Shown here in pieces: positions 1 to 46,640 of a stretch of DNA of 49,250 nucleotides. The position numbers were made by a program, and so were the translations under genes. This DNA comes from an uncultured Gammaproteobacteria bacterium (lineage in GTDB: Bacteria > Pseudomonadota > Gammaproteobacteria > DRLM01): the NCBI GenBank assembly GCA_947259075.1, contig CAMYKQ010000031.1, forward strand, positions 1 through 49,250, written 5' to 3'. The notes beneath the pieces were generated by a model. The model saw only the letters and a list, made by a program, of their open reading frames with translations, was not told the DNA's origin and did no database searches. Numbering within the stretch: the first letter of the stretch is position 1; every line of letters begins with the position of its first letter.

Positions 1-84
1 CAGGGCAAAAGCCCTCAGAAGGCGCCGAAATCTGGCCTCACTGATCTTGGAATTTTTGTAGTATCTGTTTTTGCCTTTATACAT
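1..84 (-). CDS. IS1595-family transposase, N-terminal fragment (cut by window edge)
   Basis: The minus strand from an ATG at 84-82 reads MYKGKNRYYKNSKISEARF, then RRLLRAFAL, without a stop to the window edge (28 residues). The Arg/Lys/Tyr-rich start followed by 'ISEARFRRLLRAFAL' resembles the N-terminal helix-turn-helix region of ISXO2-like (IS1595 family) DDE transposases, where a phrase of the form 'S.ISE.KFR.LvR.FaLDLTA' is common. The catalytic domain is not in the window, so the call rests on this short match. The element sits directly upstream of a 5'-truncated gene, suggesting it interrupted that gene. Confidence 0.55.
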   Translation of the reverse strand, partial: MYKGKNRYYKNSKISEARFRRLLRAFAL

Positions 85-127
85 AGAAGCAAACGCATGT
101 TAGCATGCAATCTGCTTCCTAAGACCC
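1..127 (-). mobile_element. End of an IS1595-family (ISXO2-like) insertion sequence, running off the window
   Basis: The first bases on the minus strand encode the N-terminus of an IS1595-type transposase (see the CDS at 1-84). Between its start codon and about position 127 lies a short noncoding stretch with inverted-repeat character (GAAGCA at 86-91 against TGCTTC near 113-118, and GCATG/CATGC nearby), as expected for an element end. Read inward, the proposed tip is GGGTCTTAGG. The exact boundary and the target duplication are inferred, because the other end lies outside the window. Confidence 0.55.
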
Positions 128-1166
128 AAATATAAAAGACACGTTTTTTGATTCGTTTCGAGAAGATTATGATGGCTTTGACGATTGGTTTAATAAAAAA
201 TCTGATGAAATTGCATATGTCTGTCAGTCGGGAACCGACGGTGTTTTAGCGTTTCTCTACATAAAGAAAGAAGGATATGATGAGGATTATACAAATATTG
301 AACCTGCCTTTAGCCGCAAAAGTCGATTAAAAATCGGAACATTTAAAGTAATAACCAATGGATTCAAGCTGGGCGAAAGGTTTTTAAAAATAATATTCGA
401 CAATGCTCTGATCAACAACGTAGATGAAATTTATGTGACACTTTTTCATTCAAGAGAAGAGCATGATCGACTGATAGGTCTGCTAGAAGATTGGGGCTTT
501 ACTTACCATGGGATCAAAAGATCTAAATCTGGTGAAGAAAAAGTATATACAAAGAATTACAGACCGACCCCTGATAAAGCACACCCTAAGATCACATATC
601 CTTTCATTTCTAGTGATAGGCGAATATTCATCGTTCCTATTTATCCTGATTACCATACCGAGTTACTTCCAGATTCTATATTGAATAACGAATCGCCGAA
701 AAACTACGTTGATAACGAGCCCCACAGAAATGCGATTCAGAAAGTATATATTTCTCGCTCGTTTAATCGTGACCTTGAGCCTGGTGATATAATTCTTTTC
801 TATAGAACAGGCGGTTTTTACAAAAGCGTAGTTTCGACAATTGGAATTGTAGAAAGTGTAATTGATCATATAAATGATGAAGCGGAGTTTGTAAGGTTAT
901 GTAGAAAGCGAAGCGTTTTTACGGATAAGAAATTGGCGGAATATTGGAACCATAAGGCACGGAACGGACGATGGTATAAGCCATTTATAGTTAATTTCCT
1001 CTATCTTTACTCTCTGCCGAAAAGATTAAATATGGAGGCGCTAATCAAACTTGGTGTTCTGGCTGATGCTAATAGCGCACCCAGAGGATTTGAATGTATT
1101 GATCCAAAACATTTCAATGTAATTATGGAGGCATCAGAGGCCAATGAAAATTTTATTATCGATTAA
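123..1166 (+). CDS. 5'-truncated GNAT acetyltransferase with C-terminal PUA/EVE-like domain
   Basis: The reading frame is open from 123 (in-frame stop at 120-122) to the stop at 1164-1166, but has no ATG, GTG or TTG before a GTG at 435. Coding similarity clearly begins before that GTG, so the gene has lost its 5' end. Residues from about position 141 (TFFDSFREDYDGFDDWF) to about 520 look like a GNAT fold, with an acetyl-CoA loop region KIGTFKV...GFKLGERFLKII. The second half (LEPGDIILFYRTGGF, then STIGIVESV) resembles PUA-superfamily domains of the EVE/ASCH kind. Intact relatives, as I recall them, often carry an N-terminal PIN nuclease domain; it would have been lost here or lie beyond the insertion sequence. 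Base composition is AT-rich, unlike the rest of the window. It overlaps the ASCH gene by 23 bases, implying co-expression. The acetylation target is unknown. Confidence 0.6.
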   Translation, partial: DPNIKDTFFDSFREDYDGFDDWFNKKSDEIAYVCQSGTDGVLAFLYIKKEGYDEDYTNIEPAFSRKSRLKIGTFKVITNGFKLGERFLKIIFDNALINNVDEIYVTLFHSREEHDRLIGLLEDWGFTYHGIKRSKSGEEKVYTKNYRPTPDKAHPKITYPFISSDRRIFIVPIYPDYHTELLPDSILNNESPKNYVDNEPHRNAIQKVYISRSFNRDLEPGDIILFYRTGGFYKSVVSTIGIVESVIDHINDEAEFVRLCRKRSVFTDKKLAEYWNHKARNGRWYKPFIVNFLYLYSLPKRLNMEALIKLGVLADANSAPRGFECIDPKHFNVIMEASEANENFIID

Positions 1167-1518
1167 ACCAGAATATGCCGAGAAAATATTATCCGGTGAA
1201 AAGAAATACGAATTTAGAAGAGCAATCTTTAAAAATGCTGCAGTAACAAAAGTAGTTATTTATGCATCAAGCCCAATCCAAAAAATCATAGGTGAATTCG
1301 AAATTGAATGCGTAATTTCACTAGATTTAAATGAACTATGGGAGAGCACTAAATTCCACTCTGGTATTGATAAGAAGTTCTATGATAGCTATTTCGAGGG
1401 AAAAGAAGTCGGGCATGCTATTAAAGTGAAGAAAACGAGAAGGTACAGAAAGCACCAAGATTTGGATGCTTATAATATTCAGTATCCACCTCAATCGTTT
1501 TGTTATTTGGGCGCATAA
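1144..1518 (+). CDS. ASCH-domain (PUA-like) protein
   Basis: A 124-residue protein starting MKILLSIKPEYAEKILSGEK and continuing KYEFRR, the characteristic opening of ASCH-domain proteins: a beta strand, then 'KPEya..I..GeKkyEfRr', then a strand with 'YaSsP...iiGefei'. ASCH domains are PUA-like beta barrels predicted to bind RNA or modified bases and are common in mobile gene contexts. It overlaps the end of the upstream GNAT/PUA-like gene by 23 bases, so the two probably form one transcription unit. Like that gene it is AT-rich and probably acquired. The stop codon is followed after five bases by an attC-like sequence. Molecular function is not known. Confidence 0.8.
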   Translation: MKILLSIKPEYAEKILSGEKKYEFRRAIFKNAAVTKVVIYASSPIQKIIGEFEIECVISLDLNELWESTKFHSGIDKKFYDSYFEGKEVGHAIKVKKTRRYRKHQDLDAYNIQYPPQSFCYLGA

Positions 1519-1523
1519 AGAAT

Positions 1524-1545
1524 CGCTAACAAGCCCATCAAGCCG
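1524..1545 (+). other. Half attC-like sequence (possible remnant of an integron cassette recombination site)
   Basis: CGCTAACAAGCCCATCAAGC followed by CG begins five bases after the ASCH stop codon. It has the layout of the 5' arm of an attC site, a TAACAA core followed by a TCAAG-containing stretch, and the short distance to a stop codon is typical of cassette genes. No complementary 3' arm ending in a GTTRRRY core was found before the cupin gene, so at best this is a truncated site. The call is a pattern inference. Confidence 0.3.
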
Positions 1546-1586: not shown

Positions 1587-1961
1587 ATGGCCAAAACCAC
1601 GACGACCTATTGGAATGCCTTGGACCCCAGCAACAACGGCAAATGGCAAGCGATTGAAGGCACAGATGGCATGCTGGAACAGGTGACTTTAGCCATCGAT
1701 GAAATAACGGGGGACTATACTCGCCTGACACGCTTCAAGGCGGGTGCGGACACACGGTCATTCGGCGCGAAGCAACATGATTATCCGGAGGAGATAATGA
1801 TCCTCAAGGGCCGTTTGTATGATGTAGCGGTCGATAAATGGCTGGAGCCGGGAGAGTATGCAAGCCGCCCCCCTGGTGAGGTGCATGGTCCCTTCTTGGC
1901 CAAAGAAGAATGCATCGTTCTGGAAGTGTCATACCCTAGCCTGTCCACTGAGAAAGAGTAA
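1587..1961 (+). CDS. Small single-domain cupin protein
   Basis: The 124-residue product contains a compact cupin barrel: DYTRLTRFKAGADTRSFGAK..HDYPEEIMILKGRLYD..DKWLEPGEYASRPPGEVHGPF. The first motif keeps His and Glu residues (HDYPEE) and the second has PGEVHGPF, so a metal site is plausible. The 'PEEIMILKGRLYD' pattern resembles ChrR/anti-sigma-type cupins, but no zinc-binding N-terminal domain is present. It stands alone after the AT-rich patch, converges on trpC, and may belong either to the acquired segment or to the core. Substrate and role are unknown. Confidence 0.7.
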   Translation: MAKTTTTYWNALDPSNNGKWQAIEGTDGMLEQVTLAIDEITGDYTRLTRFKAGADTRSFGAKQHDYPEEIMILKGRLYDVAVDKWLEPGEYASRPPGEVHGPFLAKEECIVLEVSYPSLSTEKE

Positions 1962-7009: not shown

Positions 7010-7163
7010 TGGCGACAAAACCACCCCGCCGCCTTCGCGTTCACCCCTCACTGGAAAGGCGAAACCACCCCGTCCGCTTCGCGTCCACCCCTCCTTGGAA
7101 AGGAGGGGATGTTTATTCTTTCTCGCCTCCTCTTTGAGGGTGAACGCCCCGCCGCCGCTGCCG
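7010..7163. repeat. Palindromic dispersed repeat units in the gph/rpe gap
   Basis: CCCCTCCTT (7088-7096), GGA, AAGGAGGGG (7100-7108) forms a perfect 9-bp stem with a 3-base loop. To its left the sequence AACCACCCCGTCCGCTTCGC repeats imperfectly (7017-7040 and 7063-7085 both carry CCACCCCG...TTCGCGT.CACCCCTC), and to the right CCTCCTCTTTGAGGGTGAACG looks like a third decayed unit. The complement matches units at 46.4-46.6 kb. The block fills the space between the gph and rpe genes and could act on either transcript as an RNA hairpin. Confidence 0.65.
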
Positions 7164-46213: not shown

Positions 46214-46370
46214 GCGGATTCCCGTGCGAAGTTCACTGAAAAAAACCGGTGCGCCGTCCGGATACGGAACGGCGCGGAATGCGGACAAGCCTAACATATT
46301 CCCCCGCCGCCCCCCCCACGCGGCGCGCGCTGACTGGCCATGGCCTTCAATAACAGCACCGCTCGCTCTA

Positions 46371-46640
46371 AAGAGGCGGGGAGAAACATCCATATATTTC
46401 CCCTCCTTTCCAAGGAGGGGTAGCGGCGATAGCCGACGGGGTGGCTTACCTTTCCAAATAGCGGTGAGCGCGCAGCGGACGGGGTTATCAACCTTAAAAA
46501 CCAAATTCCGTGCCGCGACCCCACCACCCCGCCCCTACGGGGCACCCCTCCTCGATGAGGAGGGGAGAAACAGCGATAATCCCCCCTCCTTTCCAAGGAG
46601 GGGTGGCGACGCAAACCGGCAAGGTGTTTGCGCCGCCGCG
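46371..46640. repeat. Cluster of palindromic dispersed repeat units between tldD and the nitrilase gene
   Basis: Three hairpin units occur: CCCCTCCTT-TCC-AAGGAGGGG at 46400-46420 and 46583-46603, and CCCCTCCTC-GAT-GAGGAGGGG at 46545-46565. Downstream tails resemble each other (GGGTAGCGGCGATAGCCGAC then GGGGTGG; GGGTGGCGACGCAAACCGGC then AAGGTG) and match the complement of the unit at 7063-7108. The middle unit is inverted relative to the others, with CCACCCCG to its left. This is a multicopy intergenic element, not coding sequence. Confidence 0.75.

Follow-up and report, generated by a model that had tools for sequence, protein, structure and literature searches.

A probable, recently broken copy of a PIN-acetyltransferase-EVE/ASCH module next to an insertion sequence in a gammaproteobacterial genome

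We analyzed a window of 49,250 nucleotides, the contig C31 in the assembly of an uncultured gammaproteobacterium, which starts with an AT-rich patch. With a probability of roughly 0.8, this patch arrived by horizontal transfer and represents a copy, broken not long ago, of a module made up of an AAA_17 gene, a PIN-GNAT-EVE effector gene and an ASCH gene, a module catalogued as PDC-M11 and named GevT-GevA in its short phage form. Missing its start, its PIN domain and the initial GNAT strand, the effector is most likely dead in its own genome, and the ASCH gene most likely persists there as an orphan antitoxin. The locus would be an ordinary casualty beside an insertion sequence (IS), and a natural case of an effector that was lost while its partner was kept.

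An AT-rich patch that was probably acquired

The GC content is 0.358 over positions 128 to 1518, versus 0.609 over positions 2128 to 49250, and none of 915 other windows of 1,391 bp has a GC content below 0.38. As the original prediction had it, the patch carries two overlapping frames, 123 to 1166 and 1144 to 1518. Six genomes were searched for sequences collinear with the window, and in three relatives, of the same genus and family, the alignment begins at ~2137, just beyond trpC. This break in synteny indicates that the segment not shared with the relatives reaches ~2130, and that it includes a gene for a ChrR cupin-like protein (1587 to 1961, plus strand; Pfam PF12973, E = 8.7e-11), at whose location none of the three relatives aligns. 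The cupin gene is a neighbor only, and nothing ties it to the two-gene system. Profile searches with the effector returned no match in the genomes G001 to G005, of which G001 and G002 belong to the same genus. With the alignment starting only at ~2137 and the effector absent from those five genomes, the patch has the appearance of acquired DNA, and it probably arrived by horizontal transfer. No consensus promoter was found on the plus strand in the interval from the IS to the ASCH gene.

The insertion sequence at the contig edge

Positions 1 to 127 (minus strand) represent the end of a multicopy, IS1595-like IS. Position 1 is a contig edge and falls within this repeat; contigs C19 and C27 of the same assembly end in stretches of 124 to 125 bp that are 100% identical to the left end of the window. 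In all, the assembly contains three left ends of the IS (C19, C27 and C31) and four right ends, the latter located at contigs C44, C42, C10 and C9. The transposase would start at position 84 on the minus strand and be read leftward past the contig edge. The prediction of an IS1595-type transposase at this place is thus right as to the multicopy IS end, but the family name is tentative: a single match is annotated "IS1595 family transposase", with an E value of 0.04, and both transposase ends of 27 to 32 aa, the only parts visible in the assembly, gave no match in Pfam.

The terminal repeat GGGTCTTAGGAAGCAGATT occupies positions 109 to 127 and sets the IS boundary at base 127. The effector gene had been placed at 123 to 1166; this frame is indeed open, but its positions 123 to 127 belong to the IS, and the gene sequence therefore starts at 128. 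The 5′ part of the gene is missing from view because the window begins at the contig edge. When the 7-bp flanks of the IS ends were compared by eye, C19 paired with C9 (CTTGTAA) and C27 with C44 (AAAAATA), and neither C42 nor C10 in the same assembly matched the IS copy of C31. As no other IS end in the assembly shares the target duplication of this copy, a simple insertion may have preceded a deletion or recombination, or else the partner contig may be unassembled.

Elsewhere in the window, a dispersed repeat of ~50 to 130 bp is found at about 7019 to 7153, 46370 to 46485 and 46550 to 46634. Dozens of sites in the same assembly carry it, and so does G001, a genome of the same genus.

The truncated effector gene

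The gene at 128 to 1166 (plus strand) is a truncated, start-less PIN-GNAT-EVE gene of the PDC-M11A, GevT-like type. Its product matches the PADLOC model PDLC04422 (PDC-M11A) over positions 164 to 500 of 501 (E = 3.2e-148), and PHROG matches were also counted toward family membership. The frame from 123 to 1166 contains 347 open codons and is preceded by a TAA stop (120 to 122) that lies inside the IS. In line with the prediction that the gene has no start codon, ATG, GTG and TTG are absent up to a GTG at 435, and the earliest near-start codons are ATA at 132 and ATT at 210. Translation from GTG 435 was considered and rejected, as the region of the acetyl-CoA loop would be lost; no homologue starts at that point, and none of the profile matches begins later than the first helix past the missing GNAT strand.

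The remaining protein comprises the GNAT domain minus its first strand, followed by an EVE/PUA-like domain. Pfam EVE scores 14.6 bits on it against a cut-off of 23; nothing in Pfam or NCBIfam exceeds the cut-off, the GNAT domain is not recognized by Pfam, and a sequence search of the PDB yielded no useful match. As judged by eye, no conservation is seen at the first glycine of the typical acetyl-CoA loop. The nearest intact relative (L031), which is 70% identical to the window gene over the shared part, was modeled as a PIN domain at residues 1 to 143, a GNAT domain at ~152 to 309 and an EVE/PUA-fold domain at ~325 to 502. The fold of its PIN domain matches VapC (3zvk, Z = 12.7), Pfam PIN being sub-threshold, and that of its GNAT domain matches many N-acetyltransferases (best Z = 14.3). 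The C-terminal domain matches both ZmASCH (Z = 13.8) and the structure of THYN1, a reader of 5-methylcytosine, with DNA (5j3e).

What was lost, and when

Residue 3 of the window protein aligns with residue 164 of L031, which means that the entire PIN domain and the first GNAT strand (residues 155 to 159 of L031) have been lost. Searching the organism's own genome by profile at E values up to 10 revealed neither the missing 5′ part nor any other piece of the effector, and no AAA_17 gene was found in the assembly; the same AAA_17 query matches the expected site in 4/4 effector-carrying genomes. The flanking genes of the three relatives gave no match to the other IS-bearing contig ends. These searches bear on the possibility of a misassembled contig end, with a gene that is whole in the organism itself. 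A contig edge within a repeat and a target duplication that finds no matching partner end would both fit such an artefact, which is nevertheless very unlikely, as the contig includes 127 bases of the IS, so that the IS-gene junction was presumably present in the reads, and the PIN part and the AAA_17 gene are found nowhere else in an assembly that is 99.9% complete.

A tree of 99 rows places the window gene in a supported set of 12 (SH-aLRT 98). The other 11 are all PIN forms, with an AAA_17 gene directly upstream, a PIN-GNAT-EVE gene and an ASCH gene downstream, and the ancestor of the window copy therefore most likely had the arrangement AAA_17, PIN-GNAT-EVE, ASCH. The tree omits L012, a duplicate of L027, and L129, whose frame is split; the script tagged the frameshifted PIN loci L068 and L111 as "no PIN". 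Taken with the match to PDC-M11 and the folds of L031, the tree bears out the prediction that a two-gene system of PIN-GNAT-PUA(EVE) and ASCH was broken beside an IS and left a remnant here.

The position in the tree also weighs on whether the truncated gene might still function, initiating at a rare start codon near 132 and resembling the short GNAT-EVE protein GevT of phages. Phages and plasmids do encode GNAT-EVE proteins without PIN, the window protein starts only ~5 to 12 profile positions after most of them, and its frame is entirely open and conserved. This reading has very little probability, however, since the first GNAT strand is missing, none of the three start codons occurs before 435, and the window gene belongs to the PIN lineage and not to the phage lineage. 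A dead effector remains the preferred reading. Of 118 residues with hardly any variation in 56 other aligned sequences, the window protein retains 116, and seven intact relatives used for comparison retain 114 to 117, which argues for a recent break.

The intact ASCH gene

The gene at 1144 to 1518 (plus strand) is an intact ASCH gene of the PDC-M11B, GevA-like type. It has an ATG start and a GGAG-type ribosome site, encodes 124 aa and overlaps the effector gene by 23 nt. The protein matches the PADLOC model PDLC04425 (PDC-M11B; E = 6e-51), as well as Pfam ASCH at 1.7e-6, above the cut-off of that family. The best fold match of its structural model (pLDDT 96.5) is ZmASCH of Zymomonas mobilis (5guq, 5gus, 5y6b and 5y6c), which is its closest solved relative, with a sequence E value of 3.5e-14, an identity of 31 to 33% and TM scores of 0.86 to 0.89.

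Single-stranded RNase activity has been published for ZmASCH, with Tyr47, Lys53 and Ser128 as the residues named in that work. The equivalent of Tyr47 (Y40) is kept in 56 of 56 aligned ASCH proteins and that of Ser128 (S118) in 55 of 56. In contrast, the position of Lys53 varies, being Q46 in the window and S, Q, K, G or H across the 56; the next position, 47, is a Lys in 34 of them. With two of the three published residues retained, ASCH may or may not have an RNase role like that of ZmASCH. The published activity and the retained Tyr and Ser might suggest a reverse polarity of the pair, in which ASCH would be an RNase toxin like ZmASCH and would be restrained by the GNAT-EVE protein. We regard this as very unlikely given the variable Lys and the fact that ASCH, and not the effector, is the partner that occurs alone.

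The ac4C amidohydrolase YqfB (9kyf) has the ASCH fold in common with the window protein (TM 0.57 to 0.60). The equivalent of its catalytic Lys21 (K20) is kept in 56/56 proteins, and the Lys and Arg of the octapeptide are retained, but the position of its catalytic Thr24 is occupied by Glu (E23) in 56/56. Owing to this replacement, a YqfB-like deacetylase role for ASCH is not supported.

The pair in known systems

Judged by sequence, the pair belongs to a described, widespread system composed of a PIN-acetyltransferase-EVE effector and an ASCH partner. The study of Bell et al. (2020; PMC7641849) describes (PIN)-GNAT-EVE plus ASCH as a putative toxin-antitoxin system, often accompanied by an AAA_17 ATPase, indicates that none of those modules had been tested at that time, and reports a proposal of base acetylation by Iyer et al. 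The domain order, the ASCH partner and the AAA_17 neighbor are common to that system and to the nearest relatives of the window copy, whereas the window copy itself adjoins an IS and has neither a PIN domain nor the first GNAT strand nor an AAA_17 gene. Both window proteins match the models of the PADLOC phage-defense candidate PDC-M11 (A and B) across all of their remaining sequence, the A protein being truncated to 164 to 500 of 501 positions; defense is a candidate label only in that collection. Finally, the record PV340567 of a lambda-like coliphage (Escherichia phage PhiR47_2) labels the two products of its pair as GevT toxin and GevA antitoxin. The GNAT-EVE proteins of phage and window are 38% identical and the ASCH proteins 51%, and the 23-nt overlap is the same in both; the phage form differs by having no PIN domain and by its location between cI and kil, whereas the window gene groups with the PIN forms.

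The original prediction had called the patch the best candidate for an undescribed system. This was abandoned in view of the PADLOC match, of the description by Bell et al. and of the GevT/GevA record in GenBank. We found no paper on PDC-M11, and no primary paper on GevTA in the literature searched, beyond which one may exist.

Association of the effector with ASCH

In a species-level genome collection, the effector family has matches in 506 contigs. The 80 loci examined are the best of these 506, ranked by similarity to a PIN-form query, and they are therefore uninformative on the frequency of PIN. An ASCH gene is nearby in 78 of these best 80 loci, and in 60 of the 78 the overlap is exactly 23 nt, as in the window. 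The two others are L038, which stops at a contig edge, and L048, in which ASCH is undetectable although 3.3 kb of downstream sequence are present, so the putative antitoxin gene is not always adjacent to the effector gene. An AAA_17 gene is frequent but not universal, with 43 of the 80 loci, in 40 of them directly upstream. Neighboring type I restriction-modification genes were found with narrow queries in 9 of the 80 loci, too few for such a neighborhood to be retained as a rule; one locus (L109, identical to L036) is flanked by hsdS and hsdR inside an hsd operon, an arrangement like those that Bell et al. describe (PMC7641849).

The same picture emerged from other collections. Five of 369 genomes of the class have a strong effector match, with ASCH adjacent in all five, and ASCH is present in just seven (hypergeometric probability 3.8e-10, a value that ignores kinship between genomes); this count leaves aside G224, G135 and G186, where the effector matches were partial and weak (E = 1.7e-4 to 5.3e-4). 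In plasmid records, the effector is accompanied by ASCH in 33/33 cases and ASCH occurs without the effector in 11/44, the corresponding figures for phage records being 16/16 and 11/27. The association between the two families that had been anticipated is thus borne out. A scan of viral contigs with the window protein as the only query revealed no relative.

This one-sided occurrence, with the effector never alone in plasmid and phage records and ASCH sometimes alone, fits a role of ASCH as the antitoxin and of the effector as the toxin. The window itself, with its broken effector and whole ASCH gene, is consistent with such an effector-antidote pattern. Some of the ASCH-only records may in fact hold a more divergent effector or a GNAT of another kind.

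ASCH beside other GNATs

We inspected 9 of the 11 phage records with ASCH only, and in 7 of these 9 loci a small GNAT gene directly precedes the ASCH gene. The GNAT call was made by profile in three of the seven and by eye in three others; the remaining one, L156, reads the same as one of the profile-based cases. In Streptococcus and Oenococcus phages (L152 and L154 to L159), the order is ParB-like, ABC-type ATPase, small GNAT and M11B ASCH, with no GNAT-EVE. The ATPase and the GNAT of this phage cassette match the first and the last part of phrog_11143, respectively. Sets of ParB, ATPase and acetyltransferase genes have been connected with base modification of phage DNA. A permuted arrangement occurs at L108 (4661 to 7272), where a 729-aa protein has its GNAT domain at 53 to 147, its PIN domain at 200 to 308 and an EVE-like M11A region at 547 to 708, and an M11B ASCH gene follows. 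Together, the phage cassettes and L108 indicate that M11B ASCH follows GNATs of several architectures.

Possible modes of action

A toxin or defense action of the pair is predicted, and we see about even odds that an intact pair acts as a toxin-antitoxin-like or abortive-infection pair. In such a pair, the EVE domain would dock onto a modified nucleic acid, with RNA (tRNA, for example) as the likeliest kind, and the GNAT domain would acetylate the EVE-bound target, which could be an aminoacyl-tRNA or a base. The PIN nuclease, present in the long form only, would cut RNA. ASCH, the second PUA-fold protein, encoded in the overlapping frame, would neutralize the effector by binding to it, by occupying the same ligand or by handling the acetylated product.

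Alternatively, the module might be a nucleobase-modifying cassette, with the GNAT acylating a DNA or RNA base, EVE and ASCH reading the mark, PIN removing unmarked or foreign RNA, and ASCH reading or erasing the product of the GNAT. The proposal of Iyer et al., as reported by Bell et al. (PMC7641849), goes in this direction, as do the similarity of the modeled C-terminal EVE fold to THYN1 and the presence of M11B-type ASCH after the GNAT of the Streptococcus and Oenococcus phages and after the permuted protein of L108. We nevertheless deem it rather unlikely, because an effector without ASCH occurs in 0/49 plasmid and phage records, a pattern more often seen with a toxin-antidote pair, and because the catalytic Thr of YqfB is replaced in all ASCH proteins aligned.

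With the toxin-antidote reading as the preferred one, the reuse of ASCH beside other GNATs raises a further idea, speculative and on balance unlikely, namely that ASCH of the GevA type is devoted to a GNAT chemistry rather than to one toxin. The GNAT would place an acyl mark on a nucleobase or a charged tRNA, and the ASCH antidote would recognize or shield the product. If this were true, the chemistry of ASCH in the phage cassettes would disclose the action of the toxin. The asymmetry by which the effector needs ASCH, combined with the reuse of ASCH, would offer a direct route to the target of the GNAT.

Variant loci

At L107 (6571 to 6969), where no effector gene was detected, an orphan M11B ASCH gene follows an hsdR gene of a type I restriction system at a distance of ~0.7 kb. 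At three loci, L058 (9509 to 10645), L066 (9479 to 10603) and L100 (9497 to 10429), an extra gene encoding ~310 to 379 aa separates the effector gene from the ASCH gene; the interposed genes of L058 and L100 gave no match in Pfam.

In the pair of loci L121 and L153, the Methanothermobacter phage psiM100 has a PIN-GNAT-EVE gene, ORFD, ahead of an ASCH gene. ORFD lies largely inside the annotated inserted fragment IFa, and psiM2 has the ASCH gene alone. The phage GevT-GevA pair (L011, 5944 to 7372) is present at an identity of at least 99% in 274 of 5426 complete Escherichia coli genomes, always on the chromosome and with one copy per genome.
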